A DNA stretch of 64,000 nt, taken from positions 620,001 to 684,000 of the forward strand of contig NZ_BMKD01000001.1 of the NCBI RefSeq assembly GCF_014643835.1, in the 5' to 3' direction. The notes under the pieces were generated by a model. The model was not told where the DNA came from and ran no database searches. It saw only the letters and a program-made list of their open reading frames with translations. Position 1 is the first letter of the stretch; every line of letters begins with the position of its first letter. Of this stretch, positions 30,216 to 59,449 are shown one piece after another. The stretch is from Mucilaginibacter rubeus. GTDB lineage: Bacteria; Bacteroidota; Bacteroidia; Sphingobacteriales; Sphingobacteriaceae. A program made the position numbers and the translations under genes.

Positions 30216-30238
30216 GTAGTAGTGATGTAGTGCTATAA
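30216..30238 (+). promoter_or_regulatory. Site A: direct-repeat element upstream of DUF5009 gene
   Basis: Two half-sites, GTAGTAGTGA and GTAGTGCTAT, start 11 bp apart (one helical turn). It aligns with sites at 32137-32159, 32312-32334 and 39407-39429 (16 of 23 identical to the last). The element ends 26 bp before a TAGATTTG box (30265-30272). Confidence 0.65.
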
Positions 30239-30264
30239 TAAAAGCATCAGATCATGCTATCGGA

Positions 30265-30272
30265 TAGATTTG
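30265..30272 (+). promoter_or_regulatory. -7 promoter box TAGATTTG for the DUF5009 gene
   Basis: Fits TAnnTTTG, has no -33 TTTG partner, and lies 26 bp after site A, the same spacing as the GH9 promoter. A start near 30279 would give a leader of about 135 bases. Confidence 0.55.
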
Positions 30273-30412
30273 TGCATCAATGATCCATTGGATTTATACC
30301 AGTGCTTTATAAACGAGGTTGGCATTTGGCATGCACGGCGATAATATTTTATATACCGCAAGCCATAATTCACTATTTTCCAGAAAAATTAAATGAAAAC
30401 TCTTAAATAAGC

Positions 30413-31672
30413 ATGCAGCAATTACCCAAACGCCTTTTATCAATAGATGTATTGCGTGCGATTACTATGCTCCTGATGATATTTGTTAACGATGCGGGCG
30501 GTGTACAGCATATTCCCGAATGGATAGACCACGCCAAAGGTCTTGAAGACAGGATGGGTTTTGCTGATACTATTTTCCCGGCGTTTTTGTTCATTGTGGG
30601 CTTGTCGTTACCATTTGCCATTAATAACAGGATCAAAAAGAGTGATAGTACGAGACAGGTGTTATTTTATATCCTGGTGCGCAGTGCGGCGCTGCTCATT
30701 ATGGGTTTTTACCATGTAAACCTTGAAGAATATAATTCATCGGCGGCATTAATTCCGAAGGCTGCATGGGCACTGGTTATTACTATGGCATTCTTCCTGA
30801 TCTGGCTTGACTATCCGGAATCTATGGCAAAGACTAAAAGATATGCCTTGCAGACATTGGGAATTGCTATGCTGATAGGCATGGCGGTGATTTATAAAGG
30901 TGGCGAAGATGGCGAGGTACGGGGTATGGAGCCTTCATGGTGGGGGATATTGGGTTTGATAGGATGGGCATATTTGGTTTGTGCTTTGATATTTTTCGCA
31001 GTTAAAGGCAAATTGAATAGCCTTATCGTAGCATGGATAATGTTTGCCGCCATTAATATTTTGGCACACTCTATATTAAAGATAGAGGTGTTGCACGACG
31101 AAACGATGGTAGCCATCGCAGGAAAAGATGTTACAGGCGGTTTCCTCGGCAATGCTATTATCTTTTTAAAACCGTTTTGGATAATCAACGACGCGTCAAC
31201 AATGACTTTAACTATGGGAGGCGCGGTAATATCGGGGATCTACGCCAAATTGGTTGAGCAGGGTAAAACGCAACATATTTGGGGCACACTGATTGTCGTC
31301 GTTATTTTATTCCTGATAGCAGGTTTTGCTTTAAGGCCTTATACCGAAGGTGTTTCCAAGATCCGTTCAACACCTGCATGGGTATTCATTTGTTCCGGAA
31401 TTACCACGTTAGTTTTTTTGATGCTGATATATATGGTAGATGTTAAAGGAAAAATAGATGCCTTTAACTGGATCAAACCGGCAGGTACCAGCACACTAAC
31501 CTGCTACCTGATCCCGTATTTTCAGGTGTTTACACTGGAACTGTTCCAAATTAACTATCCCGGCGTTATCAATAACGGATTTCCGGGACTATTGCGCTCT
31601 TTTCTGACGGCTGTGATCATCGTTTTATTTGTTGGATTACTTGAAAAGAAAAGATTGCGCTTAAAAATTTAA
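30413..31672 (+). CDS. DUF5009-type membrane protein related to glucosaminide acetyltransferases
   Basis: A 419-residue protein with about ten membrane helices. The N-terminal KRLLSIDVLRAITMLLMIFV with the following ND and MGFADTIFPAFLFIVGLSLP match the NagX/HGSNAT-like acyltransferase superfamily and the DUF5009 subgroup. Relatives transfer acetyl groups to terminal sugars across the membrane; that activity is inference here. It is preceded by site A and a -7 box, and followed by a strong terminator, so it is its own transcription unit beside the GH9 operon. Confidence 0.83.
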   Translation: MQQLPKRLLSIDVLRAITMLLMIFVNDAGGVQHIPEWIDHAKGLEDRMGFADTIFPAFLFIVGLSLPFAINNRIKKSDSTRQVLFYILVRSAALLIMGFYHVNLEEYNSSAALIPKAAWALVITMAFFLIWLDYPESMAKTKRYALQTLGIAMLIGMAVIYKGGEDGEVRGMEPSWWGILGLIGWAYLVCALIFFAVKGKLNSLIVAWIMFAAINILAHSILKIEVLHDETMVAIAGKDVTGGFLGNAIIFLKPFWIINDASTMTLTMGGAVISGIYAKLVEQGKTQHIWGTLIVVVILFLIAGFALRPYTEGVSKIRSTPAWVFICSGITTLVFLMLIYMVDVKGKIDAFNWIKPAGTSTLTCYLIPYFQVFTLELFQINYPGVINNGFPGLLRSFLTAVIIVLFVGLLEKKRLRLKI

Positions 31673-31824
31673 TTATTATACATACCTAAAATGTCATGGC
31701 AACAATTTCATCATTATTGTAACCATGGCTGGTGAAATATGCCGGGAGATGTTGGTGAAAAAATGAGTGCTTACTTGATGCGGCTATCAGAAACTTGGAT
31801 TAAAAGAACCTTGAAAGCATCTTC

Positions 31825-31858
31825 AAAAGAGGCCCCCTGAAATCAGGCGGCCTCTTTT
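31825..31858 (+). terminator. Strong hairpin terminator
   Basis: AAAAGAGGCC (31825-31834) pairs with GGCCTCTTTT (31849-31858); the inner CCTG/CAGG lengthens the stem. It is 153 bases after the DUF5009 gene and can act in both directions. Confidence 0.75.
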
Positions 31859-32136
31859 AGGTTTAGGCTGATTATAATAAAAGCTACTAATTATAATTGC
31901 GTTCTTTGGCATAATCGGCAATCAATGTGCCCGCATTGGCGTCAGGCAAAACCTCGCAATTAGGATGTAGCTATACTAATGATGTCGGGATGTCCGTACT
32001 TACACGGCCAGGAATAGCCTGTTTAACAATTTTAACTTTACGGCAGTCCCGTAGACTATATTTCATGTTGGATTTATATAAGAGATGAAATTTTATATTC
32101 TGCAATTATCAGCCAAACTTTACTCAATTGCTATTT

Positions 32137-32159
32137 GGAAGCCACTACAATACCACTAC
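32137..32159 (-). promoter_or_regulatory. Site B: direct-repeat element, inverted, upstream of GH9
   Basis: On the minus strand it reads GTAGTGGTAT then GTAGTGGC, half-sites 11 bp apart. Over 19 bases it differs from site C (39407-39429) at one position. It lies 266 bp upstream of the chosen GH9 start and about 150 bp before site D in the opposite orientation. Confidence 0.65.
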
Positions 32160-32311
32160 TATTATGTTATCGATAAAGTGCTACGTGGTCATTAGCCCAA
32201 AGTCGTAGTTTCTAAGCACAGAATTTTAAAAACGACTTTTCACACCCCACTTAGCACTTGCCGGGTAATCGGCGAAGGTAACTTTGTAACAAATTGAGGT
32301 GTTTAATCACG

Positions 32312-32334
32312 GTAGAGCTAATGTAGTGGCATAA
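32312..32334 (+). promoter_or_regulatory. Site D: direct-repeat element adjacent to the GH9 promoter
   Basis: Half-sites GTAGAGCTAA and GTAGTGGCAT start 11 bp apart. It matches site C at 18 of 23 positions. The element ends 26 bp before TAGCTTTG at 32361, the same spacing as site A to its box. Confidence 0.7.
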
Positions 32335-32360
32335 AAATATCCGGTCGAAACTTAATCTTT

Positions 32361-32368
32361 TAGCTTTG
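32361..32368 (+). promoter_or_regulatory. -7 promoter box TAGCTTTG of the GH9 operon
   Basis: Fits TAnnTTTG, lacks a -33 TTTG, and lies at a fixed distance from site D, as expected for an activator-dependent promoter. A start near 32375 would precede both candidate GH9 start codons. Confidence 0.6.
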
Positions 32369-32424
32369 ACCAACATTGCAAAACCATCATGCTTAAACCG
32401 CAGGGCAATTTCTTAACTTTATAT

Positions 32425-34269
32425 ATGAGTCTGAAAAAACACATCAATATCCTGTTTAAGGCCACCGCCTTGTTTTGGTTCGGTCTGCCGATTTTTGTAC
32501 AGGCACAAAATATTAAAGTGGTAACCAATCACGTTGGTTATGAAGACAACAAGACAAAACATGCCGTTATAGTTGCCGACAACCGTCTTACATTTACATC
32601 ATTTAACCTCATTGATGCAGATAAGGGTAAAGCTGTATTTACCGGAAAGATCTCTTACAGCGGCCCGGTTGGCAAATGGAAAAAATTTGAGTTTTGGACT
32701 CTTAATTTCAGCAGTTTTACCGTGCCGGGGACTTATAAAATTCAATTCGCTTCACCTAAAGGAATAATTTCATCATACCCTTTTACCATTGGCAAAAATG
32801 TGCTTGAAAAAGCTACTATATCCGATGTAATATATTATTTTAAAGGGCAGCGCAGTTCGGGCCTGCTGGATAAGGCCGATCATCATCTGGTATTACCGGG
32901 CACAACGGATACTATTGACGCGCACGGCGGTTGGTATGATGCCACCGGCGATTATGGCAAGCATTTGTCGCATTTATCATTTTCCAATTATTTTAATCCG
33001 CAGCAGATCTGTTTAACAGCCTTTAGCCTGTTTAAAACATATGAGCTGCTAAACGCCCGCCCGGGAACTGATTTCCGCCAGTTTAACCGCAGGATTTTAG
33101 ACGAAGCCATGTATGGCGCTGATTATTTAGTGCGGATGCAGGCTAAAAATGGCTCATTTTATCGCTCTGTGTCATCGCCCGGCCCCGGGAAATTGCCTAA
33201 GGATAGGGTGATCCAGGCAGATGAAGGCAATTACCGGATTAAACAAACCAAAGACCAGTCGTTTACCAAAACCACCGGGGGCAAAAACTGGCGTGCTTAT
33301 CAGGTCAGTTACCGATCGGGCGGGGGGATTGCTATTGCGGCGCTGGCTATGGCTTCGGCTTATCAAGCGTCGGGTGAGTTTAGTAACGCCGATTATCTGA
33401 AAGCTGCCGAAAATGCCTTTGCTTTTCTGGAAAAGGAAAACCCGCAAATGGACTATGATAAAAAAGAAAATATCCTTGATGATTATTGTGCGCTGAGTGC
33501 CGCTACCGAATTATACAAAGCAACTCACAAGGATATATATAAAGCTGCTACAGAAAAGCGTGCTAACAACCTGCTTAACCGCCTAACCTCATGGAATAAA
33601 TACCAAAATTTTTGGCGCGCTGACGATCGCGACTGGCCTTTTTTTCATCCATCAGATGCTGGCTTGCCTGTAGTAAGCCTGTTGTATTATTATCCCTATG
33701 CTTCTGCGGATCTGCAGGCAAAGATCAAAACAGCAGTAAGAAAGTCAATGGAATTTGAATTGGCTATTACCCACGAAGTGAACAATCCCTTTGGTTACAG
33801 CCGCGAACTGGTGCAGGATACATTGGGCAACCGGCACAGCGCTTTCTTTTTCCCGCATGGCAGTGATGCTTCACCCTGGTGGCAGGGCGAAAACGCGAGA
33901 TTAGGTTCAGTAGCCACTGCTGCACGAATGGCTGCCAGCCTGTTTAAAGATGATAAGACTTTCCATGACCAGCTCTCCGGCTTTGCGATAGATCAGTTGA
34001 ACTGGATCCTGGGCCTGAACCCCTTTGACGCCAGTATGCTGCAGGGCACAGGACATAACAATCCGGCGTATGGCTTTTTTGGCACGTTTGAATATACCAA
34101 CGCACCGGGCGGTATTGTAAATGGCATTACTTCAGGGTTTGATAATGAGGATGATATTGATTTTAATATCCCTTATGTAGTGTCAGGTAAAGATTCCGAC
34201 TGGCGCTGGGCCGAGCAATGGCTTCCACACACGGCCTGGTACCTGCTGGCAGTATCGACGAGTGATTAA
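32425..34269 (+). CDS. Secreted glycoside hydrolase family 9 protein
   Basis: A 614-residue exported glycosidase of the GH9 type (endoglucanase/cellulase superfamily; inverting). Order: signal peptide (ILFKATALFWFGLPIFVQAQ), an N-terminal Ig-like CelD_N domain (about 30-110), then the (alpha/alpha)6 catalytic domain. The catalytic-base region is GGWYDATGDYGKH, with one extra residue between the two aspartates compared with the common GGWYDAGD form. WILGLNPFDASMLQGTGHNN is the substrate-cleft motif, and the proton-donor glutamate is in GFDNEDDIDFN. ATG 32425 begins the signal peptide; 32389 is an alternative. First gene of a three-gene operon; the true glycan is unknown. Confidence 0.9.
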   Translation: MSLKKHINILFKATALFWFGLPIFVQAQNIKVVTNHVGYEDNKTKHAVIVADNRLTFTSFNLIDADKGKAVFTGKISYSGPVGKWKKFEFWTLNFSSFTVPGTYKIQFASPKGIISSYPFTIGKNVLEKATISDVIYYFKGQRSSGLLDKADHHLVLPGTTDTIDAHGGWYDATGDYGKHLSHLSFSNYFNPQQICLTAFSLFKTYELLNARPGTDFRQFNRRILDEAMYGADYLVRMQAKNGSFYRSVSSPGPGKLPKDRVIQADEGNYRIKQTKDQSFTKTTGGKNWRAYQVSYRSGGGIAIAALAMASAYQASGEFSNADYLKAAENAFAFLEKENPQMDYDKKENILDDYCALSAATELYKATHKDIYKAATEKRANNLLNRLTSWNKYQNFWRADDRDWPFFHPSDAGLPVVSLLYYYPYASADLQAKIKTAVRKSMEFELAITHEVNNPFGYSRELVQDTLGNRHSAFFFPHGSDASPWWQGENARLGSVATAARMAASLFKDDKTFHDQLSGFAIDQLNWILGLNPFDASMLQGTGHNNPAYGFFGTFEYTNAPGGIVNGITSGFDNEDDIDFNIPYVVSGKDSDWRWAEQWLPHTAWYLLAVSTSD

Positions 34270-34287
34270 TTGTAAACCATATCTACT

Positions 34288-35421
34288 ATGAAGGAGTTTA
34301 AGATCAGTTTGTGTTTCATCTTCGGGTTACTGTTGGTTTTGCCGATGTTTTCTTTCGCCTTTGATGAACATAAAACACTGGCGATAGGAGCAGCGGCACC
34401 CGATTTTAGTCTGCCCGGTATTGATGGCAAAACTTACACTTTGCAGTCGTTCAGAAATGCTAAAGTGTTAGTTGTGGTTTTTATGTGCAACCATTGCCCT
34501 ACCTCGCAGGCTTATGAAGACAAGGTAATCAAACTAACCAGCGACTATGCACCAAAGGGAGTTGGTGTGGTAGCAATCAATCCTAATAATCCTGCCTCAT
34601 TGCGCTATGATGAATTGGGCTACAGTGATTTAGGCGATTCATTTGAAGAGATGAAAATACGTGCGAAAGATAAAGGCTTTAACTTCCCATATCTGTATGA
34701 TGGCGAAACCGAATCAGCTTCCAATAAATATGGCCCGGTTGCTACCCCTCATATTTTTGTTTTTGATAAAGACAGGAAGCTGCGTTACAATGGACGAATA
34801 GATGATATGGAAAACCCTGCCAAAATACCTAAATCATTGGATGCTCGTAATGCTATTGATGCGGTACTTGGAGGCAAAGAAATAGCAGTACCGGTTACCA
34901 AAACCTTTGGCTGCTCAGTTAAATGGGCGGAGAAAATGAATTGGATAGATAAGGCGCAAATTCAATGGGCAAAGGAGCCGGTAAAACTTGATACCATTAG
35001 CGCCAGCGGAATTGCAATAGTGGTAAAAAATCATTCGGATAGGTTAAGGCTTATCAACCTTTGGGCTACCTGGTGCGGCCCCCGCGTTGCGGAGTTTGAC
35101 GATCTGGTTACCCTAAACAGGCTTTACCGCGACAGGGGACTGGAATTTGTAAGCATCAGCGCTGATGACCCGGCTAATAAAGATAAAGCTCTGAAGTTTT
35201 TACAACGCAAGCAGTCATCAGGTATCAACTACATTTATACAGGCGATGACAAATATAAAATGATAGAGGCAGTAGACCCTAAATGGCATGGAGCTTTACC
35301 TTATACCATGCTGATTGACCCGGATGGGAAGGTTGTATACAGCCATCAGGGCGCTCTCGATCTGGAGGAAGTTAAGAAAGTGATCTGGAATAACCCGATG
35401 ATGGACAGGATCTATAAATAA
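34288..35421 (+). CDS. Exported tandem thioredoxin-fold protein (AhpC/TSA plus TlpA-like)
   Basis: A 377-residue exported protein (signal peptide FKISLCFIFGLLLVLPMFSF) with two thioredoxin-like domains. Domain 1 (about 30-190) is redoxin-like: AAPDFSLPGIDGKTYTLQSF and VVFMCNHCPTS with Cys67 and Cys70. Domain 2 (about 235-377) is TlpA-like: LINLWATWCGPRVAEFDD, where the resolving cysteine of WCxxC is arginine (C263, R266), a one-base TGC to CGC change. Domain 2 is thus monothiol. It sits 18 bases after GH9 and 24 before ThuA, so all three are one operon. Its partner is not known. Confidence 0.85.
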   Translation: MKEFKISLCFIFGLLLVLPMFSFAFDEHKTLAIGAAAPDFSLPGIDGKTYTLQSFRNAKVLVVVFMCNHCPTSQAYEDKVIKLTSDYAPKGVGVVAINPNNPASLRYDELGYSDLGDSFEEMKIRAKDKGFNFPYLYDGETESASNKYGPVATPHIFVFDKDRKLRYNGRIDDMENPAKIPKSLDARNAIDAVLGGKEIAVPVTKTFGCSVKWAEKMNWIDKAQIQWAKEPVKLDTISASGIAIVVKNHSDRLRLINLWATWCGPRVAEFDDLVTLNRLYRDRGLEFVSISADDPANKDKALKFLQRKQSSGINYIYTGDDKYKMIEAVDPKWHGALPYTMLIDPDGKVVYSHQGALDLEEVKKVIWNNPMMDRIYK

Positions 35422-35445
35422 ATCATCAATGCAGAAATTATCGAT

Positions 35446-36204
35446 ATGAAAAAAATAGCCCTGATCTTCAATTTTTGCCTGTTAACTGTCATCAGCGCGT
35501 GGGCACAAAACGCCCCGCGTTTTAAAGTAATAGCTCTGTATGAAAACGGGGGGCATCATATTGAGTATTCAAAAGTGGCAAAAGTATGGCTGGATAAGCT
35601 GGCTGCTGATAGTAATTTTTTTGTCGATTATATTCAAAGTACTGATGGAATTGATGATGCTTTTTTGTCTAATTATCAATTATTTATTCAGCTGGACTAC
35701 CCGCCGTATGCCTGGAAGGAAAAAGCCGTAAAAGCCTTTGAAAAATATATTGATGAGGGTAAAGGAGGCTGGATAGGTTTTCATCACGCAACCCTACTGG
35801 GCGAGTTTGATGGTTACCCGATGTGGAACTGGTTCTGGAATTTTATGGGGGGGATCCGCTATAAAAACTATATAGCTACATTTGCCAAAGGTACTGTCAA
35901 TATCGAAGATCAAAGCCATCCGGTAATGCAAGGCGTTTCACCATCTTTCCTGATTCAGAAGGAAGAGTGGTACACTTATGACAAAGATCCAAGGCCTAAT
36001 GTACATGTGCTGGCCTCGGTAGATGAATCAACCTATGAACCTAAAGACGGCATTACTATGGGTGACCATCCTGTAGTATGGATTAACCCCGGAAAAAAAG
36101 CCCGGAACGTTTACATCTTTATGGGACACTCGCCAGTGCTTTTTGATAGTAAGGATTATACCAGGCTTTTCAGCAATGCTATATTCTGGGCTGCCGGAAA
36201 ATAA
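35446..36204 (+). CDS. ThuA-domain protein, exported
   Basis: A 252-residue exported protein of the ThuA (trehalose-utilisation) class I glutamine amidotransferase-like fold. Signal peptide IALIFNFCLLTVISAWAQ. Family features: ALYENGGHHIEYSKVAKVWL at the start, GGWIGFHHATLLGE in the middle, HPVMQGV, and DHPVVWINPGKKARNVYIFM then GHSP at the end. The catalytic role of ThuA proteins is not settled, but they are common beside glycoside hydrolases. Last gene of the GH9 operon; convergent with the regulator gene after 113 bases. Confidence 0.88.
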   Translation: MKKIALIFNFCLLTVISAWAQNAPRFKVIALYENGGHHIEYSKVAKVWLDKLAADSNFFVDYIQSTDGIDDAFLSNYQLFIQLDYPPYAWKEKAVKAFEKYIDEGKGGWIGFHHATLLGEFDGYPMWNWFWNFMGGIRYKNYIATFAKGTVNIEDQSHPVMQGVSPSFLIQKEEWYTYDKDPRPNVHVLASVDESTYEPKDGITMGDHPVVWINPGKKARNVYIFMGHSPVLFDSKDYTRLFSNAIFWAAGK

Positions 36205-36317
36205 ATACGAAAGTAGCCGGGATTGAGCAAAAGCATTTTTAAAACAAGATGCCTATCGGGGCAGCACTTGTTCGATGTTTAATAGTAGCTGGAAAATAGT
36301 GAAATCTGGAAGCAGTT

Positions 36318-39239
36318 TTACCCGGATTGTTTAGTAACCTCCATCAAAAAGTCGTATAGGTTAGTTTCGGTAGCTAACTGCAGTTTTTTGCGTACCCGGT
36401 AACGGCTGATCTCCACGCCTTTCAACGAAATATTAAGCAACTGCGCTATCTCCTTTGATGAAAGGTTTAACCGCAGGTAAGCACACAGCTTCAAATCGGT
36501 TGAGCTTAAACCGGGGAATTTGGCTTTCATGGTGGTTAAAAAGTTATTATGCACCTGGTCAAAATACATGGAAAAGTTGTCCCAGTCATCATCACTTTTC
36601 CCGGTATCGTTTAATAATTTAAACACACCCCTGAACTGGTATGATGCATCAGGGATATTAAGTTTTTTGATCAATATCATCAGCTCGTCCTTAATATTGA
36701 GCAATAGTTTTCCCCTGTCAACCATTTGCATGGTTAAGGTAGCCAGCTCCTTATTTTTATGAGATAGTTCGGCTTCAAGTTTTTCGTTTTTAAGAGCTAT
36801 GATCTCTTTATCATTCCTGTCAAGTTCAAGACTATGGAGGTAGCTGAGCCTTTTCTGTTCATCTGCATGGCGTTGTTGATACAGCTCGAAACGTTTTTGC
36901 TGTGCCTTTATGCCGATATAAACAATGCAGGCAATGATCAGGAAATAAGCCAGGTAAGCCCAAATAGTTTGGTACCAGGCCGGCTCAACAATAAAAGTAT
37001 AATTGACAGCAGCAGATGCAGTGCCCAAATTATTACGGGCCTTTACCGAAAACGTGTATTTGCCATAAGGAAGGTTGGTGTAATCCTTCTCTGTTTTAAC
37101 CGACCATTGTGACCAGTCTTTATCAAAACCTATCAATTTATAGCTAAACTCTTCATTGCTTTTTTGTGCGAACAGGGTAGATGTATATTCAAAATGAAAG
37201 GAATTCCAGTGGTTGGACAGCGAGGCAATAAGTTGCGTGTTTTGTGCTGATGCGATCCGGTTGTTTTTAACAAAATATCCTCCAAAAATAAGGCTGTCTT
37301 TTTCAGCTATAGCTTTTACTGTAGTAAGCAATACCTTGAGTTTGTTGTTGGAAGATACATACTGTCGGTAATTTAAATGAAATACGCCATTGTTTGAGCC
37401 GATAAAGATGTTCTCCATGTCGTACGGATAAATATACTCTGCCCCCTTTACTGTTTGCCCGGCCAGTTCAGGGAAATAGATCACCTTATAAGATACGTTA
37501 GATGATCTTTTGCCAAAATCAATTACGCCAACCCGCTGGTTGCTGATAAACCAGATATTACCCTTATTGTCTTCTGTAAGGAACTCGATTTTTGCTTTGC
37601 CAAATATAGGTTTGTAAAAAACAGACCGAGCAAAGTCACCCTCGGTGACATTATACTCATAAGCACCTTTTTCGGTGACAGCGATTACTTTGTTTTTAAT
37701 AAAATACACATGATTATTCAGCGCCGATGGTAAGCCGCTTTTTTCGGTATATTGTGTATAGCCAACTACCTTTTTCCTGTCGGCGGATAGCTGCACTTTA
37801 AAAATGCCCCTGTAGGGGTGCGTTGCCCACACGAAGTTGCCCTTATCCACCGCGAGGTTTCCTAACGATTCATAAATACCATTTATTTTTCCTTCAAAGG
37901 TAAATCCGGCACCATTGTATTTTAAGAGTTGAAAGCCGGTGTAAGTCCCCGCTATCACATCTTGAGTAGCAGGGAAAGCTTTCACCATCCACGCCCCCGG
38001 GCCGGGAGTAATCAGTTTAGCCTGGTTATCGTCTACCTGTAAAACACCATCCTGATGACCGGCCAATAAATGCCCGTTAATTTGCGTAAGGCTTAAAACC
38101 TGTCCTTTAGTGTTTGGCACTTCTGCAAAAGCACCTGTGGCCGTGCTGATATCTTTTTGCTGCGCGCCTATCGGTACAGCATATAAGCCGTTCGATGTTC
38201 CGATGAACAGTTTATTGTTGAAGATACTTACCGCATTGCTTTTTACCAGGTTTTCGCGATTGGGATAAATATTTTTAACTGAAGTGTTATAACTGATAAA
38301 ATCGAGCCCATTTTCCAGTCCGAGCCATAAATTACGATCTCTGTCTAACAATATACCATGCACATTATTGTTTTGTAACCCCTGATTGTTGGAGAACTGG
38401 TCTATCGGCTTGCCTTTGCCATCAATAATAATCAGCCCTTTTGCTGATGTACCAATGGCGTACCTGTCGGTGCCAATTTTTTGAATGAAGTTTATAAGAT
38501 CAGTAAGCAGGATTCCATCAATAGCCGTGTTTTTTTTAACCAGTGACGAGCCAGCGACGATAAAGAGGCCATTTTTGCGGGTACTTACCAGTAAGGTGTC
38601 TTTATTAAACTCAGTGATGCCGGTGATGCTCAGCGCCGTTGTGGGTTGTTGAACGGAGGCTTGCCAGCGCGAATCTTTAAAAATAACCAGTCCAATAGCT
38701 TTATCATAAGCAAACAATTTACCGCCGGCCTGGTTTAGCAGCATCCAGCCACCGGGTGCATCAAAGGTGTGCATGGTATTGTTCTTCAGCTCAAAGATAC
38801 ACTCTATGGTCCTGAAGAACACCTCATTATTATGGATAACGATATCCCAGATATCGGCAAACTGCCTTGCTTTTTTGGGCAGGAGTTGTTTAAGCGAATG
38901 AAATTTGAGGATGCCTGCATTGTCAGGAAAAAAATAGCCTACTTCATCCTGTCCGCCAACATAAATACGTCCCCAGGCATCAATAGCTACAGATTTTATG
39001 GCGCTTTTATTAGGAAGCGGATATGTTTTCCAATAACTCCCGTCGAATGTCAGCAGGCCTTCATCATTGGCAAAATAAAGAATCCCATTCTTATCTTGTT
39101 TAATATTCCAAATCTCGCTCCCTGCATTATATTCATTATGCGTGTAGCTTTTGATAGCGGGTGTCCCAATGGTTGTTTGAGCAGAAGATGCGCAGATCGA
39201 CATGCGCAGAACAATAACAAATAGTATGCTTTTTTTCAT
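36318..39239 (-). CDS. Membrane-tethered regulator: propeller sensor, Y_Y_Y domain, TM helix, LuxR-type HTH
   Basis: A 973-residue one-component-like regulator. A signal peptide is followed by a two-component-regulator-type beta-propeller (repeats such as IWNIKQDKNGILYFANDEGL and GILLDRDRNLWLGLENGLDF), a Y_Y_Y domain (EFSYKLIGFDKDWSQW then PYGKYTFSVKARN, about residues 690-750), one TM helix near 766, a coiled coil (about 795-850) and a LuxR/GerE-like HTH (LSSKEIAQLLNISLKGVEIS, about 930-950). There is no histidine kinase or receiver, so periplasmic sensing would act directly on the HTH. It lies next to the GH9 operon and site C is 168 bp upstream of its own start, making it the prime candidate to bind sites A-D. 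Confidence 0.9.
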   Translation of the reverse strand: MKKSILFVIVLRMSICASSAQTTIGTPAIKSYTHNEYNAGSEIWNIKQDKNGILYFANDEGLLTFDGSYWKTYPLPNKSAIKSVAIDAWGRIYVGGQDEVGYFFPDNAGILKFHSLKQLLPKKARQFADIWDIVIHNNEVFFRTIECIFELKNNTMHTFDAPGGWMLLNQAGGKLFAYDKAIGLVIFKDSRWQASVQQPTTALSITGITEFNKDTLLVSTRKNGLFIVAGSSLVKKNTAIDGILLTDLINFIQKIGTDRYAIGTSAKGLIIIDGKGKPIDQFSNNQGLQNNNVHGILLDRDRNLWLGLENGLDFISYNTSVKNIYPNRENLVKSNAVSIFNNKLFIGTSNGLYAVPIGAQQKDISTATGAFAEVPNTKGQVLSLTQINGHLLAGHQDGVLQVDDNQAKLITPGPGAWMVKAFPATQDVIAGTYTGFQLLKYNGAGFTFEGKINGIYESLGNLAVDKGNFVWATHPYRGIFKVQLSADRKKVVGYTQYTEKSGLPSALNNHVYFIKNKVIAVTEKGAYEYNVTEGDFARSVFYKPIFGKAKIEFLTEDNKGNIWFISNQRVGVIDFGKRSSNVSYKVIYFPELAGQTVKGAEYIYPYDMENIFIGSNNGVFHLNYRQYVSSNNKLKVLLTTVKAIAEKDSLIFGGYFVKNNRIASAQNTQLIASLSNHWNSFHFEYTSTLFAQKSNEEFSYKLIGFDKDWSQWSVKTEKDYTNLPYGKYTFSVKARNNLGTASAAVNYTFIVEPAWYQTIWAYLAYFLIIACIVYIGIKAQQKRFELYQQRHADEQKRLSYLHSLELDRNDKEIIALKNEKLEAELSHKNKELATLTMQMVDRGKLLLNIKDELMILIKKLNIPDASYQFRGVFKLLNDTGKSDDDWDNFSMYFDQVHNNFLTTMKAKFPGLSSTDLKLCAYLRLNLSSKEIAQLLNISLKGVEISRYRVRKKLQLATETNLYDFLMEVTKQSG

Positions 39240-39406
39240 TAACGGTTTTCCTGGCGAGGGTTAAAACCCATTGATAATTAGTATTGCCCGGCAAATGCGA
39301 GCCTAATTAACAGCCGTAAATTAATCAACATTTTACATATAATATGTAGTTCGCTAATATTGCTAAGCGAAAAAAACGCATATGTGGTAAACCTGCAATA
39401 GATTGC

Positions 39407-39429
39407 GTAGTGGTATTGTAGAGGCATAG
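39407..39429 (+). promoter_or_regulatory. Site C: direct-repeat element upstream of the Y_Y_Y regulator
   Basis: Half-sites GTAGTGGTAT and GTAGAGGCAT start 11 bp apart. It lies 168 bp upstream of the regulator start and points away from the gene, the same relation as site B to GH9. No clean -7 box was found at the 26-bp distance on either side. Confidence 0.6.
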
Positions 39430-51754: not shown

Positions 51755-51843
51755 TTAGCTACGCGTCATAAAGTCATTTTGATTGGCTAATTGCGCAAGT
51801 GACAGGTAATGACTTAATGGCCAATGACTAATGAAATAAAACA
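51755..51843. repeat. Intergenic TCATTA/AATGAC word string
   Basis: TCATTAG, TCATAAAGTCATTT, AATGACTTAATGG, CCAATGACTAATG and similar words repeat up to the next start codon. It is the same class as 54218-54265 and 61877-61975. Confidence 0.5.
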
Positions 51844-51844
51844 T

Positions 51845-54211
51845 ATGTTTAAGAACTATTTAAAAATCGCGTGGCGGAGTTTGATTAAAAACAAACTTTA
51901 TTCGACCATCAATATTGGAGGTTTGGGTGTAGGCATGGCAGTGAGCTTTATGTTGCTGTTATATGTTTATAATGAATTTACTTACGATGGGTTTCATGAA
52001 AATAAAGACAGGTTGTATAAGGTAATGCGTAACCAGCCTTCAAATGGCGAAATAAACACGGGGGATGCCACGCCCGTGCAGATTGCTGCCGCGCTGCAAA
52101 AAGACTATCCGGAGGTTGAGTATGCAGCCCGTGCAAACTGGTCATATGATCAACTGTTTAATTACAACAACAAACCGTTAAAAGTTAATACAATTGCGAC
52201 CGACGAGTCATTTCTGAACATGTTTACACTTGATTTTGTGAAGGGTAACAAAAAAGATGCTTTTAGGGATATGTCGTCAGTTATCATGTCCGAATCGGCA
52301 GTAAAGGCCGTTTTTGGCGATGTCGATCCTATAGGTAAAACTGTTAAGTTAAATGGTTCGCGGCTGGTAAAAGTGAGTGCTGTTTACAAAGATCTGCCCC
52401 GGAATTCTACGTTCAGGTTTAATGCACTAATTCCATGGAAACTTTATGAAGCTGATAATGGCTGGGTGAAAACATCGGGTTGGGGTAACTATTCGTTTAA
52501 AACTTATGTTATGCTTAAGCCTGGTGTTAATGTAGATAAGCTTAATCTGGAAATCAAAAAGTTAATTGGTCGCTATGACGATCATAATAAAGAAAATCAG
52601 TTGTTCTTGTTTCCATTTGCCAAATGGCACCTGCACAGCGAGTTCAAAAATGGAGTGAATACAGGTGGCGCAATCGAATACGTGCGTTTATTCCTTTTTC
52701 TGGCAATAGGTATTTTGCTTATTGCGTGTATCAACTTTATGAACCTTTCTACTGCGCGGTCTGAGCGCCGCTCCCGTGAAGTTGGGATCCGTAAAGTTGT
52801 GGGTGCACGGAGAATAGCCATTGTTCAGCAGTTTTTAGGCGAATCAATCCTAACCGCTATAATTTCGCTTGTTGTTGCACTGGTAATAATAGCATCAACG
52901 CTTGGTTATTTTAACGAAATCATACATAAGCAACTAACAATTCCTTATAGAAATGCGTGGGCATGGGGTGCCGCTATATTAGTAACGCTGATAACAGGTT
53001 TATTGGCAGGTAGTTACCCGGCTTTGTTTTTATCGTCGTTTAAACCGGTAAAAGTTTTAAAGGGCACTAACAAAACTGGTAGAAAAACGCTGCACTCAAG
53101 ACAGGTATTGGTTATTGTGCAATTTGTATTTGCTACATGTCTTATACTTTCAAGTATCCTAATTTATAAACAGATCAACTACATTAAAGACCGCCCGGTA
53201 GGTTATTCACAAAATGGACTTATCGAAATCTCATTAGATGGAAATTTATATAAAGAGTACGAAAACTTCAGAACGGATATAATTAATGCAGGAGCCGCTG
53301 TTGATGCTGCAGAGACATCGGGCAGTATAGCCAGTAACGGCAGCAGCAGTTGGGGCATCAACTGGCCCGGACAGCTACCTGGCGAGGATAAAATACCTAT
53401 CGACCAGATTGTTACTTCATTTCATTTTATTTCAACTTATAAGCTTGAATTGATAAAAGGCCGTGATTACATACCTGGTCGTATGGCCGATTCACTGTCG
53501 CTCATTATGAACGAATCGGCTGTTAAACTGATGCGGTTAAAAGATCCGCTTGGGCAGATAGTGAAATGGCAGGGCCGTAATTGTACCGTGGTTGGTATTG
53601 TTAAAGATTTTGTTTGGGGATCGCCATATGAGCCTGTCAAGCCTGCCATTATTGGTTTTGATAAAGGTTGGGCAGGTCAGCTTGGTATTCGTTTAAATCC
53701 GAACGCTTCGGTATCAAAGAGCCTTGCTACAATTGGCAATATTTATAAAAAATATAACCCCGAATACCCATTTGAATACAAGTTTGTTGACGAAAACTTC
53801 AGCGGCAAATTTGAGAATGAAAAGCTGTTGGGTACGTTGTCGAGTTCGTTTACGGTGTTGGCCATTATTATATCCTGCCTCGGCTTGTTTGGTTTAGCTT
53901 CGTTCTCGGCCGAGCAGCGTAAAAAGGAAATCAGTATCCGTAAAGTATTAGGCGCAAGCATCAGTAGTTTGTGGTTCAACCTGTCGAAAGAGTTTTTAAT
54001 ACTCGTGGTTATTTCATTTATTATTGGTTCGGCCCTGAGCTGGTACAACATGAGCAAATGGTTACAGCATTATACCTACCGTACAGATATAAGCGCCTGG
54101 GTATTTATAGCTACCATCAGCATTAGTATGATAGTTTGTTTACTCACCGTGAGCTGGCAGGCTATCAAAGCAGCGTTGAGTAACCCGGTTAAGAGCCTAA
54201 AAAATGAATAA
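51845..54211 (+). CDS. FtsX/MacB-type ABC permease (array member 1)
   Basis: A 788-residue permease for export of a substrate driven by the ABC ATPase. N-terminal TM, first MacB_PCD-type periplasmic domain, three TM with SERRSREVGIRKVVGARRIA, a second periplasmic domain, and the C-terminal FtsX module with AEQRKKEISIRKVLGASISS. Two FtsX halves make it double the size of a MacB permease unit. The start is set at ATG 51845 (MFKNYLKIAWRSL), matching the paralogues, not the ATG at 51824. It ends in ALSNPVKSLKNE. Confidence 0.92.
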   Translation: MFKNYLKIAWRSLIKNKLYSTINIGGLGVGMAVSFMLLLYVYNEFTYDGFHENKDRLYKVMRNQPSNGEINTGDATPVQIAAALQKDYPEVEYAARANWSYDQLFNYNNKPLKVNTIATDESFLNMFTLDFVKGNKKDAFRDMSSVIMSESAVKAVFGDVDPIGKTVKLNGSRLVKVSAVYKDLPRNSTFRFNALIPWKLYEADNGWVKTSGWGNYSFKTYVMLKPGVNVDKLNLEIKKLIGRYDDHNKENQLFLFPFAKWHLHSEFKNGVNTGGAIEYVRLFLFLAIGILLIACINFMNLSTARSERRSREVGIRKVVGARRIAIVQQFLGESILTAIISLVVALVIIASTLGYFNEIIHKQLTIPYRNAWAWGAAILVTLITGLLAGSYPALFLSSFKPVKVLKGTNKTGRKTLHSRQVLVIVQFVFATCLILSSILIYKQINYIKDRPVGYSQNGLIEISLDGNLYKEYENFRTDIINAGAAVDAAETSGSIASNGSSSWGINWPGQLPGEDKIPIDQIVTSFHFISTYKLELIKGRDYIPGRMADSLSLIMNESAVKLMRLKDPLGQIVKWQGRNCTVVGIVKDFVWGSPYEPVKPAIIGFDKGWAGQLGIRLNPNASVSKSLATIGNIYKKYNPEYPFEYKFVDENFSGKFENEKLLGTLSSSFTVLAIIISCLGLFGLASFSAEQRKKEISIRKVLGASISSLWFNLSKEFLILVVISFIIGSALSWYNMSKWLQHYTYRTDISAWVFIATISISMIVCLLTVSWQAIKAALSNPVKSLKNE

Positions 54212-54217
54212 ATCTGC

Positions 54218-54265
54218 ATTGGGTCACTGAGTCATTAAGCCATTGAATGCTGAATAATGACTTAA
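54218..54265. repeat. Intergenic TCATTAAG/AATGAC word string
   Basis: GGGTCACTGAGTCATTAAGC, CATTGAATGCTGAATAATGA and so on, no ORF. Same class as 51755-51843. Confidence 0.45.
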
Positions 54266-54272
54266 TAATATA

Positions 54273-54315
54273 AAGTCTAAAGTAAAGAATAACTTTGATT
54301 CTCTACTTTAGACTT
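54273..54315. repeat. 18-bp hairpin in permease intergenic gap
   Basis: AAGTCTAAAGTAAAGAAT (54273-54290) pairs with ATTCTCTACTTTAGACTT (54298-54315) with one mismatch and a 7-base loop. It lies between permease genes 1 and 2. Confidence 0.65.
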
Positions 54316-54462
54316 CTGACTTAAACAAACGTTCACATTCGCACTGTAAGTGTTCCATTATCGAACGGTTTTATATTGATTGTATTTTGTTAATTGATTG
54401 ATATTTAATTAATTGTGTAATTGGTATGGGTTTTAATATTTTAGTGGTATAAACCATTTGCC

Positions 54463-56853
54463 ATGTTACGTAATTACATCAAAATAGCCTGGAGAAACCT
54501 TATCAAACACAAGGTTTTTTCGTTTATCAATATCTTCGGTTTAGCTACAGGTATTGCTGCTTTTTGGCTCATTAGCCTTTATGTGGTTGATGAATGGAGT
54601 TACGACCGTTATAACCTTAAAGCCGATCGTATTTTTCGCGTGGTACAGCACGGCACATGGAACGGCGGCAAATTCAATCTCGCGGTTACTTCACCGCCAT
54701 ATGCCCCCGCTTTAAAAAATGATTATGCCGAAGTGGAAGACGCTATCCGCATTGATGCTGAAGGTGGCGGTAAAATCACTTATGGCGAAAAGCAGATTAA
54801 CGAGGGTGCGATGTTGTTTACAGATAAAGGCTTCTTTAATCTTTTTACCCATCACTTTTTATCCGGCGATCCCAATACTGCTTTAACCAAGCCACAAAGC
54901 ATTGTACTTACTAAAACCCTATCCGAAAAAATATTCGGTAACGTTGCGGATGCACTCGATAAAACTGTGCTCATCGAAAATAACCCAAGCACAGTTACCG
55001 GTGTAATTGATGATATAACTGCAAATTCGCATTTTACTTTCAGCGCCCTTCGCTCATTGCCTGATGGTTATACCGATGGTTGGGCTAATTCACACGTTTA
55101 TACCTATGTGCTGCTGAAAAATCATGATGATTTTAAAAAGGTCCAGGCTGGCTCCGATGTGTTTTTTAATAAATACCTAAAAGGGCCGCTTGGAGCTATA
55201 CAATACAGTATGGAACTGCAGCCGCTTACATCAATTCACCTTAACTCTAATCTTGATTACGAGCTGGGCAGCAACGGCAACATAACCTATGTATATGTAT
55301 TTGGCATTGTAGCACTACTGATACTGGCTATCGCAGTTATTAATTACGTAAATCTTACAACAGCACGTTCATCCATAAGGATTAGGGAGATAGGTGTGCG
55401 CAAGGTAATTGGCTCCAGCAAAAAACAGCTGATCATAATGTTTTTTGCCGAATCAGTTTTGTTTACACTCATCGCTGCCTTGATAGCATCAGTGATGGTG
55501 CAATTTTTATTGCCTTATTTTAACCTTCTCTCCGGTAAAAGCCTTGTACTTATGCAGTTTGGATTTAGCAAAACGCTTATCTTATTCAGTCTGTTTGCGT
55601 TTGTTACCGGTATTTTAAGCGGTTTATATCCCGCATTGTTCTTATCGGGGTTCCGCACCATTGCTGCTATGAAGGGGCAAATGGGCAGTCAGGCTGCTAC
55701 TATCATGTTCAGGAAATCATTGGTAATATTTCAGTTTGTTATTACCATTGTTATGATAGCCGGTTCATGCATCATTTACAGGCAACTACGTTATGTGATG
55801 AATAAGGACCTCGGCTTTAATAAAGCCCAAACGCTTACCTTTCATATTAGCGATAAATCGGCACGCACAAAAATTGCCGCTATTAAAAGTCAGCTTTTGC
55901 AAAATCCGGCTGTTGAGGCCGTGGGTATTGCAGGCAATCCTATAGGTAACAATGATATCGGTTTGAGCAATTTCAATATCGGCGCTGACGGAAAGGCCAA
56001 TTCTGAATCAAAAATGGTGGAGAACCTTATAATTGATGAGGATTTTATACCAACCTTACAGGTGAAGCTGGCCAAGGGCCGAAATTTTTCAGCAGAGATG
56101 AGTACCGACCGGCTTGAATCCATTATTGTAAACCAAACGTTAGTTAACGAAATGGGCTGGAAGGATGCCATCGGCCGCTCTGTGAGGGTTGGAGTAGATG
56201 ATAAGGGCAATGTGATCAGCCGGAAAATAATTGGTGTGGTTAAAGATTTTAACACCTATTCGTTACAGCACAAGGTTGCACCAATGATGTTGTACCTGCC
56301 TTTTACAGCCAATGATGAGGATAATATGTATATCCGAATTGGCAGGAATAATATTCCAGCCACGCTCGACTATATCAGCAAAGTTTACAGCCGTTTTGAT
56401 ATCGAAAACAAAGTTGAGTTTCATTTCCTCGATCAGAATTTTGCCAAACAATACCAGTCCGAACAAAAGCAGGGCAACATCCTGCTTATATTCACCATAC
56501 TGGCTATCAGCATTGCTTGCCTGGGCTTGTTTGGTTTGGTGACCTTCACTGCAGAGCAAAGGGTAAAGGAAATTGGCATCAGGAAAGTTTTGGGTGCAAG
56601 TGTAACCTCCATAGTTACCCTGTTGTCAAAAGATTTGATGAAACTGGTGTTGATTGCCACACTGATAGCGTCGCCGCTGGCCTGGTATGGCATGCGGAAA
56701 TGGTTACAAAGCTTTGCTTATCGCGTAGATATTAACTGGTGGATCTTCGCTATAGCAGGTGTTCTTGCAGTAATTATTGCCTTTGTAACGGTGAGCATGC
56801 AATCGGTAAGGGCGGCAAATGCTAACCCGGCTAAAAGTTTAAAAAACGAATAA
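54463..56853 (+). CDS. FtsX/MacB-type ABC permease (array member 2)
   Basis: A 796-residue permease with the same duplicated FtsX architecture. Landmarks are LRNYIKIAWRNLIKHKVFSF (TM1), SSIRIREIGVRKVIGSSKKQ mid-protein and AEQRVKEIGIRKVLGASVTS near the C-terminus, ending NPAKSLKNE. It is the most divergent of the array in the mid section. The long gap before it (251 bases) holds the 18-bp hairpin and AT-rich leader. Confidence 0.92.
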   Translation: MLRNYIKIAWRNLIKHKVFSFINIFGLATGIAAFWLISLYVVDEWSYDRYNLKADRIFRVVQHGTWNGGKFNLAVTSPPYAPALKNDYAEVEDAIRIDAEGGGKITYGEKQINEGAMLFTDKGFFNLFTHHFLSGDPNTALTKPQSIVLTKTLSEKIFGNVADALDKTVLIENNPSTVTGVIDDITANSHFTFSALRSLPDGYTDGWANSHVYTYVLLKNHDDFKKVQAGSDVFFNKYLKGPLGAIQYSMELQPLTSIHLNSNLDYELGSNGNITYVYVFGIVALLILAIAVINYVNLTTARSSIRIREIGVRKVIGSSKKQLIIMFFAESVLFTLIAALIASVMVQFLLPYFNLLSGKSLVLMQFGFSKTLILFSLFAFVTGILSGLYPALFLSGFRTIAAMKGQMGSQAATIMFRKSLVIFQFVITIVMIAGSCIIYRQLRYVMNKDLGFNKAQTLTFHISDKSARTKIAAIKSQLLQNPAVEAVGIAGNPIGNNDIGLSNFNIGADGKANSESKMVENLIIDEDFIPTLQVKLAKGRNFSAEMSTDRLESIIVNQTLVNEMGWKDAIGRSVRVGVDDKGNVISRKIIGVVKDFNTYSLQHKVAPMMLYLPFTANDEDNMYIRIGRNNIPATLDYISKVYSRFDIENKVEFHFLDQNFAKQYQSEQKQGNILLIFTILAISIACLGLFGLVTFTAEQRVKEIGIRKVLGASVTSIVTLLSKDLMKLVLIATLIASPLAWYGMRKWLQSFAYRVDINWWIFAIAGVLAVIIAFVTVSMQSVRAANANPAKSLKNE

Positions 56854-56863
56854 ACCTCACCAA

Positions 56864-56882
56864 CCCTCTCCAAAGGAGAGGG
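56864..56882. repeat. CCCTCTCC/GGAGAGGG hairpin
   Basis: CCCTCTCC (56864-56871), loop AAA, GGAGAGGG (56875-56882), then CTTAATG. It is directly after the permease-2 stop. It could end transcription partly or be a dispersed hairpin. Confidence 0.55.
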
Positions 56883-56923
56883 CTTAATGTGTGGACTATG
56901 ATATAAAATAATTAATTAAAATT

Positions 56924-56939
56924 CCTCCCCTTGGGGAGG
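56924..56939. repeat. CCTCCCC/GGGGAGG hairpin next to a start codon
   Basis: CCTCCCC-TT-GGGGAGG ends 13 bases before the permease-3 ATG at 56953, so it may influence translation or act as a boundary. Confidence 0.5.
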
Positions 56940-56952
56940 TTAGAAGGGATTT

Positions 56953-59373: not shown

Positions 59374-59449
59374 GCAGTTTGTAGTGGCAGTTAGCAGTTA
59401 TGTAACAGGAGGATACCAATGAACTAACGAACAATTGAACCAATGAACC

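Follow-up and report, generated by a model that had tools for sequence, protein, structure and literature searches.

A tandem GTAG operator shared by a DUF5009 gene, a GH9 operon and a putative membrane-tethered LuxR-type regulator in Mucilaginibacter

Introduction

Hybrid two-component systems (HTCS) carry a histidine kinase, a receiver and an AraC helix-turn-helix (HTH). In Bacteroides (e.g. BT4663) they combine a periplasmic propeller/Y_Y_Y-type sensor with direct-repeat operators and glycan genes, and the same features are found at the locus described here, a 64,000-nucleotide stretch of Mucilaginibacter rubeus (contig NZ_BMKD01000001.1, positions 620,001 to 684,000; hereafter the window). 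In the window, four tandem GTAG sites, operators A to D, lie around a DUF5009 gene, a GH9 operon and the gene of a membrane-tethered regulator. This regulator has a LuxR-type HTH and no kinase, receiver or AraC domain, and the half-sites of the four window sites are 11 bp apart, whereas HTCS are AraC-like and their half-sites average 21 bp apart according to PMC3878776. Judged by comparative sequence evidence, the sites are very probably the operators of this regulator, a predicted one-component membrane sensor that would activate promoters of the GH9 and DUF5009 type.

SusR-like regulators of Bacteroides are likewise membrane proteins with a periplasmic sensor, a cytoplasmic DNA-binding domain and direct-repeat operators. 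By their published description (PMC3878776), the predicted half-sites are 67 or 77 bp apart and the DNA-binding domain has no significant similarity to known transcription factors, whereas the regulator studied here has an 11 bp repeat and a Pfam GerE match. For the target genes, the closest counterpart is the chitin pathway of Vibrionaceae, which also contains the exo-acting GH9 subgroup (VC0615/PBPRA0520/VP2484) and a phosphotransferase system (PTS); PMC6096475 describes VC0615 and PBPRA0520 as acting on chitosan oligosaccharides, proposedly after PTS import of (GlcN)2. In contrast to this pathway, the PTS of Mucilaginibacter is of the mannose family and would be controlled by a membrane-tethered regulator of LuxR type; the window lineage has lost it. 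Other glycan regulons are assigned to different regulators, such as an AraC-family protein for carrageenan in Zobellia (PMC5698469) and XylRA for xylan (PMC12125979). A literature search, made largely outside the subscription literature, found no operator described for a propeller/Y_Y_Y/LuxR regulator.

Results

Four tandem sites in the window

All four sites reported in the earlier note were recovered in the sequence (Table 1). Its counts are also correct: B and C differ at 1 of 19 positions, D and C agree at 18 of 23, and 26 bp separate each of the sites A and D from its TAnnTTTG box. A 22-base consensus with at most 3 mismatches matches B, C and D and has no match in 100 shuffles, while a 21-base consensus with at most 5 mismatches picks out exactly A to D in 64 kb; in 100 first-order Markov sequences, which served as chance model for the latter, the mean was 0.14 and four matches were never reached. 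With at most 6 mismatches the window contains 7 matches against a simulated mean of 1.6. A looser pattern, the fixed GTAG/GTAG skeleton, stands out less, with 3 matches against an expected 0.42 and an equally high count in 1 of 100 shuffles. Site A is weak by itself, with 5 mismatches to the 21-base consensus; in the closest relatives (G006, G118 and G123) a site with at most 1 core mismatch precedes DUF5009 in 3 of 3. Chance origin is ruled out by the shuffles and the Markov simulations: the window does contain four tandem GTAG sites, in excess of chance expectation.

A fifth GTAG-7-GTAG match exists at 59370-59392 (+), near the end of an open reading frame (ORF) and without the remaining motif, and is probably due to chance.

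The operator tracks the regulator in the genus

The genome-wide operator counts were all taken from relatives' genomes. In 7 genomes with a regulator relative, 0-3 consensus matches each were found at up to 3 mismatches; all of them are at the regulator locus in five genomes, G005 has two elsewhere, and Solitalea (G007) has none. The same threshold applied to 149 Mucilaginibacter genomes gave 67 matches in 37 genomes. The window-derived consensus is present in 32 of 41 genomes with a regulator at least 60% identical and in 5 of 108 without one (Fisher 3e-19, where Fisher values ignore kinship and the 60% line was set at the observed gap, from 60% to 48%). The core GTAGWGNTRNTGTAGKG, a pattern drawn after seeing the consensus results across the genus, is found in 41 of 41 regulator-bearing genomes and 4 of 108 others. 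It gives 150 sites and its reversal 8; the 11 bp spacing of these 150 sites is given by construction of the pattern. None of the 146 core sites in the 41 genomes is inside a called ORF of at least 120 amino acids, while 3 of the 4 remaining sites are inside such ORFs and the other, on a 9-kb contig (G096), precedes a GH9 paralogue. By sequence comparison, the scan of related genomes proposed in the earlier note shows an operator that is found again across Mucilaginibacter and goes with the regulator.

The same genes without the regulator

Orthologous genes in genomes with and without the regulator provide natural controls. Rows were counted at identities of at least 65% for GH9, 55% for PTS EIIA, 60% for DUF5009 and 45% for the lyase-like gene, with at least 150 bases upstream and duplicate upstreams removed; EIIA rows below 55% identity and the regulator-less G086 stayed uncounted. 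Of the GH9 rows, 32 of 39 with the regulator have a site with at most 1 mismatch upstream, and none of the 8 regulator-less rows does, their best match having 4-6 mismatches. For PTS EIIA, the site is present in 24 of 24 regulator-bearing rows (the best site being the divergent GH9-facing one in 5 of them) and in 0 of 5 regulator-less rows. Of the 7 regulator-bearing GH9 rows that lack a site, six lie behind a lyase-like gene that bears one. Lyase-like rows have the site in 12 of 12 cases and DUF5009 rows in 7 of 13, the other six again behind a lyase-like gene. Absence of sites upstream of orthologues, which had been named as evidence against the proposal, was not what we found for GH9 and EIIA in regulator-bearing genomes.

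A GH9 tree of 48 rows has six changes of the regulator label, and in the 6 independent pairs the site follows the regulator in about 5 and opposes it in 0. In this scoring, the six rows behind the lyase-like gene were taken as site present, while G108 and G116, whose GH9 begins at the contig end with the upstream missing, were taken as 0.

Promoter geometry

Measured from the first GTAG, an exact TAnnTTTG box stands at +49 in 36 of 150 core sites, and every other offset between -300 and +400 has at most 1. With at least 5 of the 6 box letters required at +49, the box is found at 28 of 32 GH9, 11 of 12 lyase-like and 3 of 3 DUF5009 promoters, which agrees with the expectation that the operator-to-box distance is kept. 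The predicted lack of a -33 element also finds support: of the 47 forward sites at GH9, lyase-like and DUF5009 genes, 40 have no TTG in the -33 zone and 7 have one, and the consensus in this zone is A-rich (AAAATA).

Flipped operators follow another distance, with a box at +55 in 12 of 12 SusC and 7 of 14 ThuA promoters and at +54 in 5 of 6 for a cytochrome gene. The 6-bp shift between +49 and +55 may compensate for the operator flip. Eight operators separate a DUF4468 gene from a divergent ThuA gene; all 8 have the forward box (+49 or +50) and 3 the reverse box (+54 or +55), and a single operator may serve both divergent promoters in some cases.

The regulator and its own operator

The regulator matches Reg_prop (PF07494; 41.3, cut-off 20.4) and Y_Y_Y (PF07495; 47.9, cut-off 26.6), and hydropathy indicates a single membrane helix at about 755-780. 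Its best solved relatives are HTCS sensor domains (PDB 4a2l, 3v9f, 3va6 and 3ott), and no histidine kinase, receiver or AraC HTH is among its Pfam matches at E<=0.001. Relatives at E<=1e-200 occur in 116 of 251 family genomes.

A tandem site within 450 bp ahead of the regulator or its relatives is found in 62 of 104 regions against 4.7% of shuffles, and 61 of the 62 are flipped (relaxed template, up to 1 mismatch; regions below 200 bases and duplicates left out). In the window, operator C faces away from the regulator gene and lacks a box at any standard distance; it is probably an autoregulatory operator of either sign.

The half-site varies with the recognition helix. GVEI-type helices go with GTAGTG as first half-site at 24 of their 32 sites and with GTAGTA at 6, RAVEV types with GTAGTA at 9 of 13, and P/S types with GTATGG at 5 of 5. 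A site stands in front of the gene in 60 of 68 Ser-type and 2 of 36 Gly/Ala-type helices. The proposal that operator presence depends on Ser of the recognition helix (SRYR) is weakened by the regulator tree, where the trait shows just two changes, and by a site directly behind the gene in some Gly/Ala types.

The GTAGTA variant was matched 12 times across the 251 family genomes; 9 of these matches are 107-464 bp before a regulator relative, all flipped. The GTAGWG core has 40 matches (control 18), including 15 in the five genomes with a regulator at least 60% identical; 14 of the 40 adjoin a regulator relative, 8 in front of and 6 behind the gene. Placement was compared at 40 regulator loci, namely the upper part of the relatives list plus the loci in motif-matched genomes. 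In Solitalea, a core match (L007:12945-12965) lies directly behind the regulator gene and ahead of the next gene, and the same place is occupied in five other distant genomes. Both lineages taken from NCBI are Sphingobacteriaceae.

Regulon and likely substrate

Counted by gene, exact core sites occur in the 41 regulator-bearing genomes at GH9 (29 genomes), PTS EIIA (18), ThuA (17), extracytoplasmic function (ECF) sigma (15), the regulator (14), SusC (13), the lyase-like gene (12), DUF4468 (8), DUF5009 (4) and DeoR (4); these counts omit mismatched sites, and ORF calling missed some EIIA starts. The remark that no SusC/SusD lies nearby holds only locally, since SusC bears the operator in 13 of these genomes. 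A complete mannose-family PTS is seen at L144:7874-13341, with EIIA, EIIB, fused EIICD, Enzyme I, HPr and a Glucosamine_iso (NagB-type) gene; also in L144, a GH18 gene comes after DUF5009. PTS EIICD is present in 41 of the 149 genomes, 6 of these without the regulator.

The window GH9 matches 3h7l, 6gdt and 5dgq at E 1e-127 to 1e-134. Asp140, Asp144 and Glu546, given as the catalytic residues of VC0615 in PMC6096475, match identical letters in it (alignment to 6gdt, chain positions), and by these alignments it is assigned to the exo-acting bacterial glucosaminidase group. Because the targets include an exo-glucosaminidase-type GH9, a mannose-family PTS, nagB and GH18, they point to glucosamine or N-acetylglucosamine (GlcNAc) sugars, and with moderate confidence we regard oligosaccharides of glucosamine or GlcNAc as the likely substrate.

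ECF sigma genes stand beside the operator in both orientations, flipped at L118:5098-5679 and forward at L133:4338-4949. The operators at such genes suggest a cascade from the membrane sensor to an ECF sigma factor.

Gene loss in the window lineage

The nagB relic adjoins operator B and is the sole trace found of the PTS-nagB operon kept in other species. Between operator A and DUF5009 lies the lyase-like relic, which recurs in L006 (2e-4) and L200 (8e-4); in relatives, the counterpart of operator A is followed by an intact lyase-like gene. G006, G118 and G123 are absent from the 41 genomes bearing PTS EIICD. Since relic tails adjoin both operators and EIICD is missing in close relatives, operator B is read as an orphan promoter left from a deleted PTS-nagB operon, and operator A as first the promoter of the lyase-like gene that now serves DUF5009. 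By these remains, the regulon has shrunk in the window lineage, with the PTS-nagB operon and the lyase-like gene lost and their operators retained. The earlier note linked DUF5009, the GH9 operon and the regulator by one operator; the shared operator stands, and the roles of A, B and C are corrected here.

The window is placed in Mucilaginibacter by regulator relatives. The nearest named species is M. gossypii (regulator 92%, neighbouring genes 84-99% identical), and the regulator of G118 is 94% identical to that of the window. The GH9 start codon may instead be at 32426. Elsewhere in the window, 51824-61873 holds four tandem ORFs of about 800 residues each.

Table 1. Operators, promoter boxes, genes and gene relics in the window
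Feature	Position	Strand	Description
Operator A	30216..30238	+	GTAGTAGTGATGTAGTGCTATAA; GTAG half-sites 11 bp apart
-7 box	30265..30272	+	TAGATTTG; +49 from operator A
Lyase-like (PF12708) relic	30313..30393	+	Last 27 residues; tblastn 63% identity, E 0.001
DUF5009/HGSNAT-like membrane protein	30413..31672	+	Pfam PF16401 26.0 (cut-off 25), PF07786 24.6 (cut-off 22)
nagB relic	31890..32051	-	C-terminal 54 residues, internal stop; tblastn 59% identity, E 1e-16
GATAATTG box	32103..32110	-	+49 from operator B; same in relatives' intact PTS promoters
Operator B	32137..32159	- (read 32159 downward)	GTAGTGGTATTGTAGTGGCTTC; tandem GTAG, 11 bp spacing
Operator D	32312..32334	+	GTAGAGCTAATGTAGTGGCATAA; tandem GTAG, 11 bp spacing
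-7 box	32361..32368	+	TAGCTTTG; +49 from operator D
GH9, exo-glucosaminidase-type	32389..34269	+	Pfam GH9 and CelD_N; best PDB matches 3h7l, 6gdt, 5dgq
Redoxin/thioredoxin-like protein, GH9 operon	34288..35421	+	Pfam
ThuA-family protein, GH9 operon	35446..36204	+	Pfam PF06283
Membrane-tethered regulator	36318..39239	-	Propeller repeats, Y_Y_Y, transmembrane helix, LuxR-type HTH
Operator C	39407..39429	+	GTAGTGGTATTGTAGAGGCATAG; flipped with respect to the regulator gene, whose start lies 168 bp away

Discussion

The regulator is the putative binder of the operators because the two co-occur, the natural controls lack the site, and the operator lies beside the regulator across the family; the earlier note's proposal that its LuxR-type HTH reads the sites gains support from these comparisons. 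In the mechanism we propose, the periplasmic propeller/Y_Y_Y part would bind a glucosamine-type oligosaccharide, and ligand binding would pair the cytoplasmic LuxR-type HTHs. The pair would then occupy two GTAGTG half-sites spaced by 11 bp, one turn of the DNA helix, and recruit RNA polymerase to the TAnnTTTG box at +49, mostly without a -33 TTG. A flipped operator copy would serve other promoters with a box near +55 (SusC, some ThuA), and the flipped copy before the regulator gene would probably serve autoregulation of either sign. Sequence comparison shows that the motif exists, co-occurs with the regulator, is missing from orthologues in regulator-less genomes, keeps a fixed spacing and lies beside the regulator gene; from this we infer binding by the regulator, activation and a glucosamine-type ligand.

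The operators could instead be read by another transcription factor travelling with the same genes, such as a paralogous Y_Y_Y/LuxR protein, DeoR or an ECF sigma factor. Paralogues of 32-48% identity are common, and DeoR and ECF sigma genes do adjoin the operator in some genomes. However, the 74 paralogue-only genomes (115 matched less 41) have 2 core matches, both inside long ORFs, and DeoR and ECF sigma, at sites in 4 and 15 of the 41 genomes, resemble targets. Together with the operator flanking this regulator's gene family-wide, these findings make another reader unlikely.

It is also unlikely, if slightly less so, that the regulator binds as a repressor and is released from DNA by its ligand. 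The flipped site before the regulator gene, which has no fixed box, could be a repression operator, but target operators lie upstream of a box at a fixed distance, mostly lacking the -33 TTG, and such an arrangement is the usual sign of activation. The remaining explanation, that the sites are kept only by shared descent of the locus or belong to an unrelated repeat element, fits the sites of close species, which are mostly near the regulator locus. It is very improbable given that sites also exist at distant loci, that orthologous genes in regulator-less genomes have none, and that the spacing is fixed across gene families.

Several results weigh against the regulator as activating reader of these sites, in addition to the limits given above for the core pattern, the 60% line and the Fisher values. 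The C-terminal GerE HTH match (PF00196) is marginal, at 23.6 bits against a cut-off of 23.5. The reversed consensus still gave 24 matches in 22 genomes against the 67 real ones, and the single consensus match in G080 lacks the first GTAG. G108 has no site in front of its GH9, four regulator loci (L060, L062, L066 and L073) have none in front of the regulator gene, and the sign test on the GH9 pairs gives p 0.0625. At PTS promoters, which read GATAATTG or GATTATTG at +49, the box scores better at +38 (15 of 18), and +49 does not give a clean box common to the PTS. ECF sigma promoters have their box at +65 (7 of 11) or +58 (6 of 11) and not at +55, and no fixed box was found in the regulator genes' own promoters. 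For the GTAGTA variant, the reversed control has 10 matches against 12, and position alone is informative. The pairing of helix and half-site is a clade-level pattern and not a set of independent events, and the two changes of the Ser versus Gly/Ala trait limit that comparison as well.

Beyond the genus, we lean slightly towards a Sphingobacteriaceae-wide family of one-component propeller/Y_Y_Y/LuxR regulators reading one-turn direct repeats, in which orientation would set the box distance (+49 or about +55), one operator could serve two divergent promoters, the self-copy would be flipped, and helix variants would pair with half-site variants as a protein-DNA code. Our confidence in this family-wide code was lowered to that level because the reverse box is present in so few of the divergent operators.

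A defined operator with a fixed promoter distance would make such regulons readable from sequence and testable by a binding assay. The regulon would connect a single sensor with both a Bacteroidota sugar PTS and a GH9 of the exo-glucosaminidase type, and the protein-DNA code, if true, would be readable for an unstudied class of regulators.

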